This document shows, in pieces, positions 3,057-46,648 of a stretch of DNA of 50,361 nucleotides. The position numbers were made by a program, and so were the translations under genes. The notes below the pieces were generated by a model. The model made no database searches and had not been told where the DNA came from. It worked only from the letters and a program-made list of their open reading frames with translations. Every line of letters starts with the position of its first letter. Positions within the stretch are counted from its first letter, which is position 1. This DNA is from Planctomycetaceae bacterium (GTDB lineage: Bacteria; Planctomycetota; Planctomycetia; Planctomycetales; Planctomycetaceae): contig OMIV01000265.1 of assembly GCA_900299185.1 (NCBI GenBank), positions 1 through 50,361 on the forward strand, read 5' to 3'.

Positions 3057-3398
3057 ATGACAACACCGACACGCGGTGAGGTATGGCTGATCGACTTCGA
3101 CCCAACAAAAGGCCGAGAGCAAGCGGGCAAGCGACCAGGATTGGTCGTCTCAACGAATGGTTTCAACAAGAGCCCGGCGGGACTGGTGGTCGTGCTGCCA
3201 ATCACCAGCAAGTTCAAAGGCATTCCGTGGCACGTTGAAGCATCTCCGCCTGATGGGGGCTTGAAGATGACGAGCTTCATCATGTGCGAGGCAGTGAGGT
3301 CGGTCTCGGTCGAGCGGTTTGTGAGTCGACTGGGCTCGATTCGGAAAGCGACTCAAGACGAAGTCGACGACCGACTGCGCATCCTCTTCGATCTGTAA
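3057..3398 (+). CDS. MazF/PemK-family endoribonuclease toxin
   Basis: A 113-residue protein of the MazF/PemK (CcdB-like fold) family, ribosome-independent or ribosome-associated mRNA interferases. It shows the N-terminal 'RGEVWLIDFDPTKGREQAGKRPGLVVS' pattern, with the conserved Gly-Arg-Pro turn and catalytic Arg. The 'VVLPITS' strand carries the conserved Thr/Ser, and a 'SFIMCEAVRSVSVERF' strand-helix follows. Length is typical. ATG 3057 has AGAAGG at 3043-3048 overlapping the antitoxin stop; a longer in-frame start is rejected. The pair probably helps keep the integrated element in the population (inference). Confidence 0.85.
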   Translation: MTTPTRGEVWLIDFDPTKGREQAGKRPGLVVSTNGFNKSPAGLVVVLPITSKFKGIPWHVEASPPDGGLKMTSFIMCEAVRSVSVERFVSRLGSIRKATQDEVDDRLRILFDL

Positions 3399-3448
3399 CT
3401 TTTCCGACCGGGCTTCATCGACAGCATTCGACAACGGAGTCATCAACA

Positions 3449-4801
3449 ATGGCGAGCTTTAGTTTCGACGCGGAAAAGAAGACCGCATTTATTCAATGGC
3501 GAGACATCAACAAGGATCGGCGCGGCATTCGATTGGCCGGAGTCTCAAAGACGTTTGCGATGCGGTTTCATTCGTTGGTCGAGACGCTGAGCGATGCTCA
3601 ACGCACTGGCAGCGGACTCGACCGACATACGACTGACTTCGTCAGTGGTCTATCCGATGAGTTCTACGACAAGCTCTCGAAGACCGACCTCATCGAGCCT
3701 CGCGTCAAAGCCACGACGGAACCGGCTGAGTCTGCGGATACGGACGGCATGACGTTGGGCAAGTTCCTGGCGGAGTACCTTGAGCGACGGACTGACGTGA
3801 AGGCGGGAACCAAGACCTTCTACACCCACACAGTTCGCAATCTCTTGGACTGCATTGGTGCCAAGAAGCTCGTGGCCGATGTCACTGAAGGCGACGCGGA
3901 TGAATTCCGCCGATTCCTCAAACGCGAAAAGCTGTCCGACGCGACGATCAATCGACGTTGCGGTCTGGCGAAGACCTTCTTCAGGTCTGCGGTTCGACAT
4001 CGACTCATCAGCTCGAACCCGTTTCAAGACCTCGCAGCAACCACGAAGATCAATGCAGAGCGACAACGCTTCATTGACCGCGAAACCATTTCAGCAGTCA
4101 TCGAAGCCGCGCCTGACGCTGAATGGCGATTGCTGATTGCGTTGTCTCGGTTTGGTGGGCTGCGAGTCCCGAGCGAACCGTTAAGCCTGAAATGGGCGGA
4201 CATCGACTGGGAGAAGTCCCGAATGAAGGTGACGTCGCCAAAGACCGAGCACCATCAAGGTCGGTCATTCCGATGGGTGCCGATTTTCCCTGAATTGAAG
4301 TTGCATTTGGAAGCCGTTTGGGAGCAAGCCGAAGACGGTGCCGAGTGGGTTATCTCGAAGCATCGACCGGCGGCGACTCAAGATTCATGGGGACATTGGA
4401 GAGCGGTCAATCTGCGAACTCAGTTCGAGAAGATCATTCGCCGAGCGGGTGTCGAACCGTGGCCAAAGCTCTGGCAAAACCTGCGATCGTCCCGAGAGAC
4501 TGAACTTTGCGAGCAACATCCGCTGCATGTGGTCTGCCAATGGATCGGCAACACAGAACGCATCGCGGCAAAGCACTATCTGCAAGTCCGCGACGAAGAC
4601 TTCGAGAAGGCCATCACGTCTCAAATAGTGATGCCAAAAGTGATGCCACTTGATGCCGTTTTGGGCTGCACGGGCTCGCACGACGAAACCGGTCATCTGA
4701 CGCAAGTCGTGTCGGTACAAGAAAAAACGGCTGCATGCGAAAACATGCAACCGTGTTCAGTGGGCAATACTGGATTCGAACCAGTGACTTCTACCGTGTG
4801 A
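3449..4801 (+). CDS. Tyrosine recombinase / integrase of the tRNA-Val element
   Basis: A 450-residue tyrosine-family site-specific recombinase. It has an N-terminal arm (1-90), a core-binding SAM-like domain (about 95-195), then a catalytic domain with Arg239 (in GGLRVPSE), Arg346 (NLRSSRETEL) and nucleophile Tyr377 (AKHYLQV). The two usual histidine positions are not His: Gln343 stands in the HxxR motif and Asn368 in the 'GH' motif (WIGN). As I recall, planctomycete integrases commonly share this pattern, so it is probably functional. ATG 3449 is preferred over upstream frames. The last residues (VGNTGFEPVTSTV) are encoded by antisense of the tRNA-Val gene, and the stop lies in its anticodon loop. 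This places the attachment site at the tRNA 3' half. Confidence 0.9.
   Translation: MASFSFDAEKKTAFIQWRDINKDRRGIRLAGVSKTFAMRFHSLVETLSDAQRTGSGLDRHTTDFVSGLSDEFYDKLSKTDLIEPRVKATTEPAESADTDGMTLGKFLAEYLERRTDVKAGTKTFYTHTVRNLLDCIGAKKLVADVTEGDADEFRRFLKREKLSDATINRRCGLAKTFFRSAVRHRLISSNPFQDLAATTKINAERQRFIDRETISAVIEAAPDAEWRLLIALSRFGGLRVPSEPLSLKWADIDWEKSRMKVTSPKTEHHQGRSFRWVPIFPELKLHLEAVWEQAEDGAEWVISKHRPAATQDSWGHWRAVNLRTQFEKIIRRAGVEPWPKLWQNLRSSRETELCEQHPLHVVCQWIGNTERIAAKHYLQVRDEDFEKAITSQIVMPKVMPLDAVLGCTGSHDETGHLTQVVSVQEKTAACENMQPCSVGNTGFEPVTSTV
4722..4753 (-). terminator. Intrinsic terminator of tRNA-Val
   Basis: On the minus strand a 10-bp stem (4753-4744 pairing with 4737-4728, one G-U pair) with a six-base loop is followed by six T residues (4727-4722). 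It begins 8 bases past the 3' end of the tRNA. This is a classic rho-independent terminator, and it lies inside the antisense 3' end of the integrase gene. Confidence 0.75.
4761..4801. other. Probable attachment-site end of the integrated element (tRNA 3' half)
   Basis: The integrase frame extends into the T-arm and anticodon arm of tRNA-Val, and the element genes all lie on the tRNA 3' side. Tyrosine integrases typically recombine within a tRNA 3' half and regenerate it from their own attP copy. A second, partial copy of this segment should lie at the unseen left end of the element. The exact crossover bases cannot be fixed from one junction. Confidence 0.5.
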
Positions 4802-4833
4802 AGATAGCACTCTAGCCGCTGAGTTAATTGCCC
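4761..4833 (-). tRNA. tRNA-Val (anticodon CAC)
   Basis: On the minus strand a full 73-base cloverleaf folds. The acceptor stem GGGCAAT pairs with ATTGCCC and the discriminator is A. The D-arm is ACTC/GAGT. The anticodon stem CTATC/GGTAG encloses loop TTCACAC, giving anticodon CAC, which reads the Val codon GTG. The T-arm is ACTGG-TTCGAAT-CCAGT. The 3' CCA is not encoded. The 3' half is the apparent integration target of the element to its left, and the whole gene remains intact. Confidence 0.93.
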
Positions 4834-24061: not shown

Positions 24062-25105
24062 CTACTTTACTTCTATGAATTCAGCATGAAGTCGGCCGGA
24101 CTCTGACAACTGACGCAAGATCGAGATCATGTCAGACGTTGGGACGCGCAGACGATTCAGAGCATCTAGCAAGTCAGAGAGTTGTTGCGGGTTCTGCTTC
24201 TTTGACGCGTCTTGCAGGGCCACAAATCGTTCGGTGGTATCAACCGTCAAACTTCGATGACTCACAACTGCCGGACTGATTTCCACATCGCCAGTTACTA
24301 CGACAGTGCCACTACGAGCATTCACAACGACTCGTGGCCGAGACGTCTCCTTAAGTATGACTTCTTCCAACAACGCCCCAAATTCTACGTGGTTGTCGTA
24401 TTGCTCGGGGATGTTGACATCCACAGCACGAATCGAGGCAGCGCGAGCAATCTCCTTGTTGCCAGCTTCCAAATAGAACTTGTCATTCACAGCACGCGCA
24501 ACTTCACGAGCCATCGAGAGACTGGCGTGTTCTGGCTTGATGAGCAGACGAAGCTGACGGTTGCGTCGGAGGATTCGCATATCGACGGACTCCTTCATGA
24601 TGAGACCGTTCGGAATCCGTCCAGAAGTCGGTAGCGTCTTATCCTCAATGAGGACGTCTCCGGCAGCCAATCCCAAGACACTACTGTCGCTGAGCAATTC
24701 GTCGCTCATGGGAGTCAAAATCAATTCGCCGCCCAGGAGACTCTTGCAAGTGCCGTAAATCGGCTTCACGTAAACATCGAGCCTCTGCCCCTTGCTGATT
24801 CCCGTTCGAGGAATCGTCGCCGAGACATTCACCACGGCAACGCTCCCTCCAGCCTTCTTCAGGTCGTCCAGATTTCGAATCGGACTGCCGTGGAGCGTGG
24901 AATACTGAGCAAGATGTTGCATTGCCGCTTTAAGGTCACCGCTATCGCCTGTCCCCATCAGCCCAACCACCAATCCCTGTCCGGTCAGTCGGATCTCTTG
25001 TTGGCCATCGAGCGTGCAGACTTGAGAAATTCGCAACGCGGCATCGACCGACCTGCAAGAAAAACTACAAACAACTAGAGAGATCAAGAGGAGTAGACGT
25101 GGCAT
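24062..25105 (-). CDS. flgI: Flagellar basal-body P-ring protein FlgI
   Basis: A 347-residue FlgI, the periplasmic ring subunit around the flagellar rod. A Sec signal peptide at 1-22 ('LLLLISLVVCSF...') is followed by the conserved 'RLTGQGLVVGLMGTGDSGD', 'AVVNVSATIPRTGISKGQRLDVYV', 'LLGGELILTPM', and a C-terminal 'LDALNRLRVPTSDMISILRQLSESGRLHAEFI'. Length is close to the family norm. ATG 25105 starts the signal peptide; the longer frame is rejected. It is last gene of the run flgF-flgG-flgA-flgH-flgI, 59 bases after the flgH stop. Confidence 0.95.
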   Translation of the reverse strand: MPRLLLLISLVVCSFSCRSVDAALRISQVCTLDGQQEIRLTGQGLVVGLMGTGDSGDLKAAMQHLAQYSTLHGSPIRNLDDLKKAGGSVAVVNVSATIPRTGISKGQRLDVYVKPIYGTCKSLLGGELILTPMSDELLSDSSVLGLAAGDVLIEDKTLPTSGRIPNGLIMKESVDMRILRRNRQLRLLIKPEHASLSMAREVARAVNDKFYLEAGNKEIARAASIRAVDVNIPEQYDNHVEFGALLEEVILKETSRPRVVVNARSGTVVVTGDVEISPAVVSHRSLTVDTTERFVALQDASKKQNPQQLSDLLDALNRLRVPTSDMISILRQLSESGRLHAEFIEVK

Positions 25106-25164
25106 TGCGCGTTCCCAGAACGATGAGTTGCAAACAGCGAACCTAATCACGAAGTGCCCGAGTC

Positions 25165-26010
25165 TTAGAACGGCGACAGGAAGTCCAATAGCCGCACTCC
25201 CCAATTGCGTTTGGTGCTGGCGTAGACTCGACCTTGCTGCTTTTTGACGATCTGCAAGTTCGCGATGTTCTCGCTGCTCGCCGTGTTGTCGGGATTGATG
25301 TCCGAAGACCGGACCTCGCCGGTGAGTGTGTACTCTGAGTAGTCATCCTGGTTCTGGATCACCTTGCGAGCTTCCAGAAGGATGGTCCCGTTCGGCTTCA
25401 CGTCTGCCACCTTGGCTGCGATGCGGTACTTAATGCCCTCTTGGTCGGTGACTAATCCCGACGAGTTGATGTTCGCATTGAGTTGCCCATCAATCTTGGG
25501 ATTGTTTCCCGCAGCGTTGGCGAGCGTTCCGCCGTCTCCTAATCACACAAAGCTCTTGAGGTCAGCCTTTAGTCCCGCGTTCTTCTGGCGATTGAACTTC
25601 TGGTTCATGATCACTTCCGACTTTTCATCCACGATGATCGTGACGATGTCATGCAGTTGGATTTTCTTCGGAGGCAGCGGATCGATGTAGATTCGGGAGT
25701 ATTCGCGAATCGTCCGCACTGGACCTGTGACTTCAAAGACAGGACCGGTTGGCAACAGCGGATCCGCTTCATTCTCCGCAGGCGGCGACGGAGGCAGTCT
25801 CGATTGAGAATGCTTTGCCAGTTGGATCGAGCCAGGAGCTTGCCTCACTGGTCCAGGCCAGCCAGCTTCGACTGACATGCTCTCGCGCGTGCGATACTCG
25901 ATACCGGGTTCAGGGCGCGTTCCGGGCGTGCGAGTCTGAGCAACAGCAACAGTCGACATGCCGACCAACACCGCGAGTGCTTGCAACCATGTGCCCATCA
26001 TCCGTGACAT
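25165..26010 (-). pseudogene. flgH: Flagellar L-ring protein FlgH interrupted by one in-frame TGA
   Basis: The reading frame is FlgH throughout, 282 codons including the final stop. It has a signal peptide (MSRMMGTWLQALAVLV...), a variable Pro-rich region, then 'IQLHDIVTIIVDEKSEV' and 'NRQKNAGLKADLKSFV'. After a TGA at 25545-25543, the same frame continues with 'LGDGGTLANAAGNN', 'YRIAAKVADVKPNGTILLEARK', 'YTLTGEVRSSDI', 'NIANLQIVKKQQGRVYAST' and ends '...LLDFLSPF' as FlgH does. No frame change is needed, so this is a single nonsense codon. TGA is an ordinary stop elsewhere in the window. It could be a true mutation, a sequencing or assembly error, or read-through. The N-terminal region has no lipobox cysteine, unlike enterobacterial FlgH. 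Confidence 0.85.
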
Positions 26011-26075
26011 GTTCTCATCCTTGAGTCGGGACTGTCCGTGAGATCGCCTCACTCCTAGAACAATTCTTACTGACG

Positions 26076-27257
26076 TTATTCGCGAATCACCTTCAAACCG
26101 GTCTTGATTGAACTCTCGCCACCATCAGTGAGTTCCACTTGCTTCATTCCAATCACGATTCCGCGTCGTTGAACTGGGCGTTCGGAAATCTTGGCAGTCG
26201 GGTCGGGAATGGTTTCCAGTGAAATGGGATCATTGAACCGCCCGTCTTGCAGGGCCTTGAATTCCTGAGTCACACGAATGTTGCCACTCACGACGACGCC
26301 CTTGATGATCTCGCCTCGCATGACCATTCGAGGCTCAGTCACCGCATCAACTTCGATCCTCTTACCGATTGGCAAGAAGCTTTTGGTTTCCTTGCCAAGG
26401 ACTTGGGTCAGTTCGGTAGCTTCACGAACTGCGTTATCGACTTCCTGCAGAGTGACATCCGACACTTGAATGATGTGCCCCGCCATCAACGCACGAGTCG
26501 TCGCGACCACCCGAATGCGTTTCTGGATCGTGGCATTCACATGCACGACTTCGGTCTGTCCCAATTCGTTCGTGATCTCGATCGCCACTCGATAGTGATT
26601 GCTGGAAGTCTTCTTACCTTCAATCAGTCGCAAACCGTCCATAGGAACGTCGAGCAACTTGGGAATCGCACTGTGAGGTACACTGACGGTGACCCGAGAG
26701 TTGGCCCACTGCGGTGACTTCTCTTCCAAATAGACTTTCAAGAGTTCTTGAACTCGGAAGTCGGCTTCTTGGATCTCGACGGCCTTCAAGTTCAACCAAC
26801 GTGAATCTTGTTTGGTCGATTTGGCTGGACGATCTGGTTCTTGAGAGAACGGTTCCTCGGCAGAGACCTTGGCAATCTTCGAAGCTGGTTGGATGAGGTT
26901 CGAAGGATCGCTCGCCAAGACAACAGTGCGAGACCGCGCCGCATCCGCCTTGCGAGTCACTGTGACAACCGTCCGCCCCGAAAACTCGATCGAGGACATT
27001 TCAATGGCGTGAGCTCGAAGCCGATCTGTGATCTGCTGCAACGTCAGACGATGTTGCTGTCCTGGTGCCGGAGCTGGTTCGATCGTCACCGCCTTCAATC
27101 GATCCAATGCTTCGGGGTCATCGTCAAAAACTTCGGCCACATCTTCGAGCCGAACAATCGACCGTTCGACTTGAGCCACACTGCGAATGCGAACGATGGC
27201 GGCCTCCGCCGAGACGGTGCTGACCAGCATCAACAATGTGATTAACAGCCGAGTCAT
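26076..27257 (-). CDS. flgA: Flagellar P-ring assembly chaperone FlgA
   Basis: A 393-residue periplasmic protein with a Sec signal (1-19) and the FlgA architecture. An N-terminal region has two divergent strands-and-helices repeats. A SAF-type domain follows from about 245 ('TTRALMAGHIIQVSDVTLQEVD', 'LGKETKSFLPIGKRIEVDAVTEPRMVMRGEIIKG'), typical of FlgA C-termini. It is longer than enterobacterial FlgA (about 220 residues) because of the extended N-terminal half. Ribosome binding site AGGA is 8 bases upstream. It lies in the flagellar operon directly between flgG and flgH, the genes whose products it helps assemble (P-ring FlgI). Confidence 0.9.
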   Translation of the reverse strand: MTRLLITLLMLVSTVSAEAAIVRIRSVAQVERSIVRLEDVAEVFDDDPEALDRLKAVTIEPAPAPGQQHRLTLQQITDRLRAHAIEMSSIEFSGRTVVTVTRKADAARSRTVVLASDPSNLIQPASKIAKVSAEEPFSQEPDRPAKSTKQDSRWLNLKAVEIQEADFRVQELLKVYLEEKSPQWANSRVTVSVPHSAIPKLLDVPMDGLRLIEGKKTSSNHYRVAIEITNELGQTEVVHVNATIQKRIRVVATTRALMAGHIIQVSDVTLQEVDNAVREATELTQVLGKETKSFLPIGKRIEVDAVTEPRMVMRGEIIKGVVVSGNIRVTQEFKALQDGRFNDPISLETIPDPTAKISERPVQRRGIVIGMKQVELTDGGESSIKTGLKVIRE

Positions 27258-27317: not shown

Positions 27318-28115
27318 TCAGAACCGTCTGAGGTTCGAGATCAATTGCAGCATCTGATCTGCCGCTTGAATGATCTGGCTGTTGAGTTCGAAGTTGCGTT
27401 GGGTCTTGATGAGGTCCACCAACTCATGCACCGGCTCGACGTTCGAGACTTCCAACATTCCTTGTGTCAGTTTGCCGAGCCCAGTCGGCCCACCTGGCTC
27501 ACCACCTTGAGCTGGTCCGGATGCGGAAGTGGCGCCGTAAAGATTCTCACCCTTTTGCAGCAGACCGTTTACGTTCGTGAATTGGTAGAGCTGAATCTGC
27601 CCGACTTCGACAGTGTTGTTCTGGGTATCTTTGTAGGTAACTCTTCCATCTGCCCCGATGCCGATTTCTTGGGCGTTTGGTGGAATCGTGATTTGGGGTG
27701 AGATGAGGTGTCCGGTGGTCGCGGAAGTCATCATCAAACTCCCTTCGGAATTCAGCGTAAAATTCCCGGCACGGGTATAGGCCACTCCAGGTCCATCCGT
27801 GACTTGAAAGAATCCCGCGCCTGAAATCGCGACATCAAGCGGATTCTTTGTTGGCAAGAGGCTGCCCTGCTGAAAATCAATCGACGTGCTTTGGATACGA
27901 GTACCCAAACCGACGTGAGTTCCAGCTGGAGTTGTCCCGTTGCTTGTTTGAGCCCCTGGGACACGAACATTCTCGTAGAACGTATCTTCAAAGTTCGCTC
28001 GAGATCGCTTGAAGGCATTTGTACTGGCGTTAGCAATGTTGTTTGCCACGTTATCCAGAGCAAACTGGTGGGCTTCCATGCCCGTTGATGCTGAGTAAAT
28101 CGCTCGCAAACTCAT
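27318..28115 (-). CDS. flgG: Flagellar distal rod protein FlgG
   Basis: A 265-residue distal rod protein. The N-terminal rod signature 'SASTGMEAHQFALDNVANNIANASTNAFKR' is followed by 'TKNPLDVAISGAGFFQV' and 'YTRAGNFTLNSEGSLM'. The C-terminal 'QGMLEVSNVEPVHELVDLIKTQRNFELNSQIIQAADQMLQ' is diagnostic for FlgG. Length is as expected (~260). Strong ribosome binding site AAGGAG. It is cotranscribed after flgF with a 97-base gap. Confidence 0.95.
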   Translation of the reverse strand: MSLRAIYSASTGMEAHQFALDNVANNIANASTNAFKRSRANFEDTFYENVRVPGAQTSNGTTPAGTHVGLGTRIQSTSIDFQQGSLLPTKNPLDVAISGAGFFQVTDGPGVAYTRAGNFTLNSEGSLMMTSATTGHLISPQITIPPNAQEIGIGADGRVTYKDTQNNTVEVGQIQLYQFTNVNGLLQKGENLYGATSASGPAQGGEPGGPTGLGKLTQGMLEVSNVEPVHELVDLIKTQRNFELNSQIIQAADQMLQLISNLRRF

Positions 28116-28212: not shown

Positions 28213-28971
28213 CTAGCCACCGACCGATTGCAGTAACCGCCCCAGCGATTCGTCCTGCATGCGGATCATCGTGATGTTTGCTTCGAACGAGCGACCCGCC
28301 TCAATCATGCTGGTCATCTCTTTGATCGGGTTACAACCCGAGGCCTCCACGGCTCCTTGGCGAACTTCCGTCCCAAAGTCTCGATCGAGTTCCGCATGTG
28401 GACGAAACAAGCTCAGACCGACTTTCTCTAACTTCGAAGTGTCGGTATTCACGACCGCAAGTTGGTTGTTGAATACCAAGTTACCAGCACTGTCGTATCC
28501 ACTCATTTGGCCCGTCTTGTTGATCTCCATCCGCGTCACGTTGATCGGGATTTCGATGTTTGCGCCGGCGTCGCTCAGAATGGGCAAACCGGTGTCTTCC
28601 ATCACGAGGGTGCCGTCATTGAGCTTCATCCGTCCGTTGCGAGTCAGAAACTCTTGATCTCCATCGCGAACTTGCAAGAAACCCGACCCCTTAAGGGCGA
28701 CGTCATACTGTCGACCTGAGTTCAACATCGAAGCCGTTCGAAAATCAGTAGTGATCTGAGCCAGCGAAACGCCACCCGTCTGTCGTGCACGCTGAGTGGG
28801 ATCCGCAGCCTCGAAACTCTTCTGAAAGTCGACCGACGGATGGCCCTGAATAATGGCCTGATCACGCTTGAAGCCGGTCGTTGACGAGTTGGCAATGTTG
28901 TTCGCCAAGACGTCCTGACGCAGCGATTGAACGTCGGCGCCTTGAGCAGAGAGATAAAGACCGTAGAGCAT
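28213..28971 (-). CDS. flgF: Flagellar proximal rod protein FlgF
   Basis: A 252-residue rod protein of the FlgF/FlgG type. It starts 'LYGLYLSAQGADVQSLRQDVLANNIANSSTTGFKRDQ', has 'LKGSGFLQVRDG', and ends 'VEASGCNPIKEMTSMIEAGRSFEANITMIRMQDE'. The FlgF assignment over FlgG rests on its order directly ahead of a clear flgG and on the shorter, more divergent middle. It is first gene of the minus-strand flagellar run, so the operon promoter should lie in 28972-29424. Confidence 0.88.
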   Translation of the reverse strand: MLYGLYLSAQGADVQSLRQDVLANNIANSSTTGFKRDQAIIQGHPSVDFQKSFEAADPTQRARQTGGVSLAQITTDFRTASMLNSGRQYDVALKGSGFLQVRDGDQEFLTRNGRMKLNDGTLVMEDTGLPILSDAGANIEIPINVTRMEINKTGQMSGYDSAGNLVFNNQLAVVNTDTSKLEKVGLSLFRPHAELDRDFGTEVRQGAVEASGCNPIKEMTSMIEAGRSFEANITMIRMQDESLGRLLQSVGG

Positions 28972-44349: not shown

Positions 44350-44680
44350 GCCGCCTGGCGAAGAGATCATGAGCCTGCAGGAGCCGCCGCCCATTCGCGT
44401 CGGCGACTCCTGGAAGCTGCGGCCTATCAATTTGGCTCACTCAATGCGCAGCATCAGCCCGTTTCGAAGCGATATTGACCCTCTTTTTCCGAGCGTCTTA
44501 TCTTCCCGCCCTTCACTCGATTCTTGAGCCACCTCGCGCCTGCTGGGTGGGGCCTGAATCACTGCGTTGTCGCTTCCTCTGACAACGCATATTCGCCGTT
44601 CGGCGTCCTGTCTGAATCCTGCCTCATCGCCATTTCGGCTCCTTCCCCTCGTCCGCACTTCTCCGCACGAAAGTCATGCC
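44350..44680. other. Intergenic region with two hairpins before the FlgI-like gene
   Basis: A perfect 9-bp stem TGCGTTGTC (44563-44571)/GACAACGCA (44581-44589) is followed within 5 bases by a tight CGCC-GTTC-GGCG hairpin (44594-44605), about 75 bases ahead of the next ATG. No U-tract is present. They could end the upstream transcript or form a structured leader. No gene was seen. Confidence 0.35.
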
Positions 44681-46648
44681 ATGTTCGTCCGCTTGAGCTT
44701 TCCAAAAGCAAGCCGGTCTTCGTTGGCTCTTTCCGTCATGTTGGCCGTGTTAGTCATCGGTCCGTTAAGCGGATGTCAGGGACTGGGCCTCAAAGGCGGG
44801 GACTGGTTCAAGAACCCGTTCGCCAAAAAGAAGAGCGCGACACGGTCTCAAAGTCCTGAAAAAGACGAGGACGACGACTTCGGAGACTCTGGCACCAAAG
44901 TCAAAACCCCGTTGGTCGGGGACTACACCACGTTCGCTGGCTTGCATGGCGTGGTGCTGCAAGGAGTCGGCTTGGTTGTCGGCTTAAATGGAACCGGCGG
45001 AGATCCTCCTCCCGGTGCGTATCGCGAAGCTCTTTTGGATGACCTTAAGCGTCGCGAAGTGCGACGTCCCAATGAACTCATTTCGTCGCCCGACACGGCT
45101 ATGGTCGTGGTCACGGCGATTCTGCCGCCGCTCATTCACAAGGGCGAACACTTCGATGTGGAAGTCCGTGTCGAGGGTGAAGGAGCTAGAAGTCTCAACG
45201 GCGGTTACTTAATGGAGACGATCCTCAGCGAAACCACGGTCGTGGCCGGACAAGGCCAAATGAAAGGCCATGTCGTCGCTAAGGCCAAAGGCCCGGTACT
45301 TGTTTCTACAGGCGAAGGTCGCAACGAAGACAAGGCCGGTGTGCTGCTTCGAGGCAAGGTGCTGGGCGGTGCTCGCTGCTTGATCGACCGTGATATGTCG
45401 ATCTATCTCAAGAGCGACTTCCGCAACTTCCGTAACGTGACTCGTATCGCCGACCGCATCGGCCAGCGTTTCTTTTCTTACAACGAGCACGGCACGCGCG
45501 AGCCTTTGTCAAAGGCGCAAACCGATCAACGCATCAATCTGAAGGTCCATCCGCGCTACAAAGAGAATGATGCTCGTTATCGAAACGTCATCGGGCATAT
45601 CGCCTTCCGCGAGACGCCGGTCGAACAGCGAGTCCGCATGCAACGTCTCGAACGCGAGCTGCTCACGCCCGAGAAATCAGAACGAGCAGCTCTGCAACTC
45701 GAAGCCATTGGCAATGACGCCATTCCGATTCTGAAGTCGGGCATCAAGAGCACTCATTTGGAGTGTCGGTTCCACTCGGCTGTGGCCTTGGCGTACCTCG
45801 AAGACTCCGACGGTCTCGATGTGTTGAAGGAAGCGGCTCTGAAGGAACGAGCCTTCCGCGTCTTCTGCTTTGCGGCCATGTCGGCACTGGATGATCCGCG
45901 AGCCCACATTGTGCTTCGCGAATTGATGAGTGCTCAGCCGGTCGAGAACAAGAAAGAGTACGACAGCGCTGAAACTCGTTACGGAGCCTTCCGAGCGTTG
46001 TGGACGCTGGACCCGAACGATCCCTTCATTGCTGGCGAACACATTCAAGACGAGTTCTGGCTGCATCCTTTGCACACAACAGGCAGCCCGATCGTGCATA
46101 TCACGCATCGCAAGCGAAACGAAATCGTCCTCTTCGGCCACGATCAAGAATTCATCACGCCGCTGGCTCTGCGAGCTGGCAATCACATCATGGTCACCTG
46201 CAGTCCCGGCAGCGAATACATCACCGTCAGCCGGTTTGCAGTGGGCGAGAAAGACAAGCAGATCAAGACGTCGCGTCGCATTGATGAAGTGCTGCGAGTC
46301 TGTGCCAAGCTCGGTGCCAGCTATCCCGACGTTGCTCAATTGCTGGTGCAAGCCGATCGACAACACAACTTGCCAGGTCGATTCGAAATCGACGCACTGC
46401 CTCGCGCGGGTCGCGTCTATTACCGAGACTCTGACAACAAGAACGAAACTCGAATTGGTCGACCGACTCAAGCCCCCACCATGTTCCAACAGACGATTCC
46501 CGAAGGCGTAGAAGGCGACGGCGAGGAATCCGAGTCGGAAGCATCCAAGGACAACTCTGGTCGAGCTTCGTTGGTCGATGCTCGGGCCGAGAAACCAGCA
46601 GCCAAGAAGGGCATCAACTGGTGGCCCTTCGGCAAGAAGGATGAGTAA
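44681..46648 (+). CDS. Lipoprotein with FlgI-like domain fused to HEAT-like repeats
   Basis: A 655-residue predicted lipoprotein with lipobox LSGC (Cys32). A basic/acidic linker precedes a domain of about 80-330 that matches FlgI blocks: 'GVVLQGVGLVVGLNGTGGD', 'AMVVVTAILPPLIHKGEHFDVEV', 'ARSLNGGYLMETIL' and 'INLKVHPRYKENDARYRNVI'. Next come HEAT-like helical pairs (about 345-445: 'AIPILKSGIKSTHLECRFHSAVALAYLEDSDGLDVL'), then a beta-rich part and a Lys/acidic tail. It is not in the flagellar operon and is unlikely to form a normal P-ring. It may form a related periplasmic or outer-membrane ring or scaffold (inference). ATG 44681 begins the signal peptide. smc follows 247 bases downstream on the same strand. 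Confidence 0.8.
   Translation: MFVRLSFPKASRSSLALSVMLAVLVIGPLSGCQGLGLKGGDWFKNPFAKKKSATRSQSPEKDEDDDFGDSGTKVKTPLVGDYTTFAGLHGVVLQGVGLVVGLNGTGGDPPPGAYREALLDDLKRREVRRPNELISSPDTAMVVVTAILPPLIHKGEHFDVEVRVEGEGARSLNGGYLMETILSETTVVAGQGQMKGHVVAKAKGPVLVSTGEGRNEDKAGVLLRGKVLGGARCLIDRDMSIYLKSDFRNFRNVTRIADRIGQRFFSYNEHGTREPLSKAQTDQRINLKVHPRYKENDARYRNVIGHIAFRETPVEQRVRMQRLERELLTPEKSERAALQLEAIGNDAIPILKSGIKSTHLECRFHSAVALAYLEDSDGLDVLKEAALKERAFRVFCFAAMSALDDPRAHIVLRELMSAQPVENKKEYDSAETRYGAFRALWTLDPNDPFIAGEHIQDEFWLHPLHTTGSPIVHITHRKRNEIVLFGHDQEFITPLALRAGNHIMVTCSPGSEYITVSRFAVGEKDKQIKTSRRIDEVLRVCAKLGASYPDVAQLLVQADRQHNLPGRFEIDALPRAGRVYYRDSDNKNETRIGRPTQAPTMFQQTIPEGVEGDGEESESEASKDNSGRASLVDARAEKPAAKKGINWWPFGKKDE

Follow-up and report, generated by a model that had tools for sequence, protein, structure and literature searches.

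An in-frame TGA in flgH of one of two planctomycete flagellar gene sets: probably a recent inactivating mutation or an erroneous base

Introduction

How is a single in-frame TGA inside flgH, within a flagellar operon that is otherwise open, to be understood: as a codon that is read through, as an erroneous base, or as the mark of a very recent loss? These three options were raised in the original prediction for the window (the whole stretch of 50,361 nucleotides of Planctomycetaceae DNA analyzed here), and they proved to be the right ones to weigh, with no positive support emerging for readthrough. Of these, a recent inactivating change in the gene or an error in the sequence accounts best for the stop, with a genuine mutation or strain variant held to be somewhat likelier than a consensus error. 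The case has calibration value: in a fragmented assembly, a lone in-frame stop in an otherwise intact gene has the look of either a newly arisen mutation or a wrong base, and this genome itself allows the low background of such stops to be measured. Should the stop be real, it would represent loss of the native L-ring at a very early stage in a bacterium that has two flagellar systems, and one could then test whether the FlgH of one system serves the other.

Results and discussion

Architecture of the interrupted flgH and its operon

On the minus strand, the codons GTG (25548-25546), TGA (25545-25543) and TTA (25542-25540) follow one another in a single frame, just as had been described in terms of two halves joined as V-TGA-L. 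The TGA is the sole internal stop. On its 5' side the frame is open over 169 codons from a GTG at 26052, an ATG at 26010 being the likely start, which leaves 155 codons up to the TGA; on its 3' side 125 open codons run to a TAA at 25167-25165. With the TGA read through, the frame matches the FlgH family (PF02107) over profile positions 22-172 with an E-value of 1.2e-25, and its 90.5 bits, set against the curated cut-off of 27, place it in this family. Scanned alone, the downstream half still matches PF02107 through to the family end with 75 bits, and the upstream half gives no Pfam match at E 0.001. Hence, the original prediction that a single in-frame TGA splits flgH, with FlgH conservation on either side of it, is confirmed, as is its statement that flgF, flgG, flgA and flgI are open, each of these carrying the expected Pfam domain (Table 1). 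Further, the order flgF-flgG-flgA-flgH-flgI is identical in the corresponding contig of a genome from the same genus (G001). Open neighbors of this kind are equally expected of an error and of a recent mutation.

Table 1. Coordinates of the flgH locus, its operon neighbors and the other Pfam-supported single-stop splits in the genome
Feature	Location	Positions	Strand	Remarks
flgI (P-ring)	window	24062-25204	-	open; listed start falls within flgH, true start probably further in
flgH, downstream part	window	25165-25542	-	125 codons + TAA; PF02107 positions 59-172; earliest in-frame start codon (ATG/GTG/TTG) is GTG 25410, 44 codons past the TGA
flgH, in-frame TGA	window	25543-25545	-	column holds Arg in 12 of the 13 closest loci
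flgH, upstream part	window	25546-26010	-	ATG start (likely); signal-peptide-like N-terminus by eye; open frame reaches GTG 26052
flgA (P-ring chaperone)	window	26076-27257	-	open
flgG (distal rod)	window	27318-28115	-	open; 62% identity with same-genus copy
flgF (proximal rod)	window	28213-28971	-	open
L112	contig C28	3055-3057	+	TAG within DUF7133 (profile 2-43 and 45-383)
L111	contig C27	7744-7746	+	TGA within FGE-sulfatase (profile to 108, from 112)
L186	contig C178:60001-80000	2877-2879	-	TAG within ABC-3 (profile to 97, from 107)

FlgH in relatives

A survey of 40 genomes, namely this one and 39 relatives, recovered FlgH in 29 of them, with 31 matches in total. The window's own copy is the only one with an internal stop, the other 30 matches being free of it, and the absence of the stop from relatives is as expected of a nonsense pseudogene. 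An alignment could be built for 21 of 23 loci, the remaining two lacking a tblastn match. Among the 13 closest loci (L005-L017, E 7.1e-37 or better), which are termed type A, the column occupied by the stop holds arginine in 12, encoded by CGN in 11 and AGG in one, and alanine in the remaining one, as opposed to a single arginine among the eight more distant loci. The same-genus FlgH is intact, has arginine at this position and shares 68% identity over residues 101-295. The comparison with flgH of close relatives, which had been proposed as a check, thus identifies the stop as a departure from a conserved arginine. A TAG in the same-genus flgH match was considered as a possible shared interruption and rejected, as it is the stop of flgA itself, lying 5' of the flgH start. 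When GTDB contigs were scanned using the read-through FlgH protein, no relative was confirmed; the sequence comparisons therefore rest on the search of the 40-genome set.

Selection on flgH and the age of the stop

At 33 near-invariant columns of the FlgH alignment the window differs at three, which falls within the range of one to seven seen in the 13 relatives. One of these departures is the stop itself, another falls on the first residue of the frame as given, and the third lies in an upstream column at which the same-genus copy also differs. Compared with the same-genus copy, the part upstream of the stop shows 54, 45 and 90 differences per 135 codons at codon positions 1, 2 and 3 (0.40/0.33/0.67), and the part downstream shows 32, 20 and 81 per 124 codons (0.26/0.16/0.65). 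This latter pattern indicates that the downstream half was constrained, and by these comparisons both halves were under purifying selection for most of their history. As the remainder of the gene has not decayed, the lesion is either recent or a consensus error. On the assumption that indels arise at 5-20% of the rate of substitutions, which is our own, the absence of a second lesion places the neutral divergence since the stop under about 4% at the lower of these rates and under about 1.5% at the higher.

In Tajima-type counts made with 12 outgroups, changes unique to the window equal or outnumber those unique to the same-genus copy in 11 cases (30 vs 14 and 20 vs 7, for instance), the exception showing 9 vs 14. 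This surplus lies mostly, though not solely, 5' of the stop: 3' of it, two outgroups give counts of 9 vs 3 and 10 vs 5, and another gives 3 vs 7. Conserved sites show no decay, and there is no consistent downstream excess of window-unique changes. Given the equal or raised counts with most outgroups, a mild relaxation of selection on flgH is possible, one that would not be tied to the part 3' of the stop.

Other single-stop splits in the genome

To place the flgH stop against its genomic background, every in-frame stop flanked on both sides by 50 or more open codons was scored for coding potential, yielding 2,961 stops in 1,135,147 bases (14% of the genome). By the stricter two-sided coding score the flgH TGA ranks first among these, and by a simpler two-sided score it ranks third of 1,146 stops in 736,273 bases; on account of these ranks the two halves of flgH are not a chance juxtaposition. 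Single-stop splits inside Pfam domains number at least four in this 1.14 Mb with flgH included, the other three comprising one TGA and two TAG (Table 1). Such counts are lower bounds, as nine of the 18 best-scoring stops were inspected; the other half includes two TAA above 0.05 (L109 and L190). Four further stops (TAG at L179 and L090, TGA at L065 and L187) show no Pfam match across the stop, the scan of L179 having covered its upstream half alone, and were not counted as splits. Another candidate, L072, was rejected because it resembles an ordinary gene start. At L065 (contig C21, 14472-14474, minus strand), which lies near the native flhA, the frame of an 1814-residue cadherin/Ig-like surface protein ends at a TGA, past which a 580-residue frame without a Pfam match continues in frame; this is possibly a further single-stop split.

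The three additional Pfam-domain splits point to a low background of nonsense lesions or errors that is not specific to flgH, and the mixture of TGA and TAG in this background fits pseudogenes or base errors rather than TGA-specific recoding. A sample of the same-genus genome (467,905 bases, 1,361 stops) was examined with unequal effort, in that inspection covered only the best of its 18 listed candidates (L200), which looks like two adjacent genes and was rejected as a split gene. Over the same score bar there are 10 stops in 1.14 Mb here vs 2 in 0.47 Mb there, which is no clear excess. Frameshift-like joints number 30 vs 18 in the same samples and, by a crude test, 3 vs 2 once those with a nearby start are set aside; as ordinary overlapping operon genes seem to dominate these joints, this survey by coding potential serves as a crude control only.

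A second flagellar system

Contig C287 opens with a second flgH (C287:342-890) and flgI, both intact. The genome further encodes two flhA genes, two fliF genes, nine Flg_bbr_C matches, a second flgG on contig C33 and four Flagellin_N matches. One flhA, on contig C148, adjoins genes of the FlhB, FliR, FliP, FliM/N and FliL families, and the other, on contig C21, has SRP54-type GTPase (flhF-like) and ParA-type neighbors whose order matches that in G001. No internal stop was found among the second-set and other flagellar genes recovered in these searches, save that of the window flgH. The statement in the original prediction that the L-ring would be lost through a single nonsense mutation was therefore overstated: in the presence of a second system, loss of the type-A flgH need not mean loss of motility, and with a further, unbroken flgH in a separate flagellar set the find becomes an ordinary one.

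The second, or type B, gene set was located at 225-2176 of contig C287 (L003) and 9753-17505 of contig C148 (L064). In G001 there is one FlgH match, and the second flhA of that genome is of another kind, with 38% and 35% identity to the two of the present genome. Foreign contamination is unlikely, as both the window and contig C287 find their best match in the same-genus genome: the window ClpB is 87% identical to its counterpart there, with the next best genus at 78%, and an 874-residue protein of C287 is 79% identical, with the next best genus at 55%.

A comparable pair of flagellar gene sets, each with a flgH, exists in Shewanella piezotolerans WP3, for which lateral flgH2 is reported to compensate for a polar flgH1 mutation (PMC5178100). 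In the present genome, compensation would involve two FlgH proteins that are just 22% identical, which makes substitution between the systems uncertain. As far as their available text goes, none of the literature matches listed reports two flagellar systems in planctomycetes.

Alternative explanations

If the TGA were read through by a suppressor or near-cognate tRNA, some full-length FlgH could be made, and the conservation of the 3' frame as protein would be accounted for; the TGA split in the FGE-sulfatase gene (L111) could be viewed similarly. However, TGA is a routine stop in this genome, terminating 164 of 450 long frames (at least 350 codons) in the 1.14-Mb sample, which bears out the earlier opinion that a general code change is unlikely. 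A search of the genome for SelA did not find it. Out of 213 first-look tRNA candidates 150 were scored, giving 44 matches, all of which except that at C348:1-87 were typed by ARAGORN; none of the 43 typed tRNAs has a stop-reading anticodon (including TCA), in a list that is incomplete, lacking tRNA-Trp and tRNA-Tyr, and from which a suppressor could thus be missing. Neither selenocysteine insertion nor a code change at UGA is therefore indicated. Additionally, the base directly after the TGA is U, which in this +4 position lowers readthrough in E. coli (PMC5289835), the stop is peculiar to this one FlgH, and TAG, not TGA, is the codon at two of the other three splits with Pfam support. Readthrough thus appears very unlikely. 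More doubtful still is the notion of a real leaky or reversible switch, by which the native L-ring would be kept low or off while the second flagellar system or its FlgH substitutes. The least credible is the separate production of the second half from an internal start, with both parts cooperating: an AGGAG sequence does occur 3' of the TGA, but no in-frame ATG, GTG or TTG follows for 44 codons, the first one would yield a mere 81 residues, and the downstream piece, as judged by eye, has no obvious signal peptide. FlgH must be exported.

A consensus error, or a variant of a minority strain that became fixed in a mixed assembly while the living population keeps the gene intact, is a serious contender, if the less probable one. 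It agrees with the open operon neighbors and the undecayed remainder of flgH; the four Pfam-supported splits, with their differing stop codons, fit base errors scattered over the 1.14 Mb. By score alone, high-scoring stops show no clear excess over the same-genus sample. On the other hand, since random substitutions in flgH create a stop in about 4% of cases (4.0% of single changes in its codons, or 3.4% at a transition bias of 4), four stops would by our reckoning imply some 100 base errors in the sample, or about 1 in 10,000, which would be high for a short-read consensus, if the assembly is one. Nor, by the crude test above, are frameshift-like joints in excess. A recent nonsense change in the flgH of one of two flagellar sets is the best explanation of the sequence evidence and, on balance, a probable one; next in order of probability comes an erroneous consensus or a variant of a minor strain, then readthrough and finally internal restart.

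Under a recent nonsense change, flgH of the native (type-A) operon would have acquired a point substitution at a conserved arginine codon, and translation would stop 155 residues after the ATG, ahead of most of the FlgH domain. As no nearby internal start rescues the remainder, no working type-A L-ring protein would be expected. The change would be young, the rest of the gene resembling one on which selection had acted until a very short time ago. Tolerance of the stop could be explained by the second flagellar system, in which both flgH and flgI are intact; the FlgH of that system might replace the broken one, or the native flagellum might simply be lost. Single-nonsense pseudogenes and strain-level null alleles occur in bacterial flagellar genes, and the window flgH is like these in having a lone in-frame stop in an otherwise intact gene, with intact neighbors and relatives. 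It differs in belonging to one of two flagellar sets and in being read from the consensus sequence of an assembly that is fragmented (383 contigs, 3.38% contamination) and probably metagenomic.

Other features of the window

Away from the flagellar operon, a phage-type integrase gene (3284-4801, plus strand) overlaps with its 3' end a tRNA-Val gene (4761-4833, minus strand), and a DUF3987 gene lies nearby at 937-2586; the region 3284-4833, together with the latter gene, resembles the border of an integrated element. Also distant from the operon, at 44567-46648 on the plus strand, is a gene for a 693-residue protein in which an FlgI-like domain is followed by a weak HEAT match under the cut-off.
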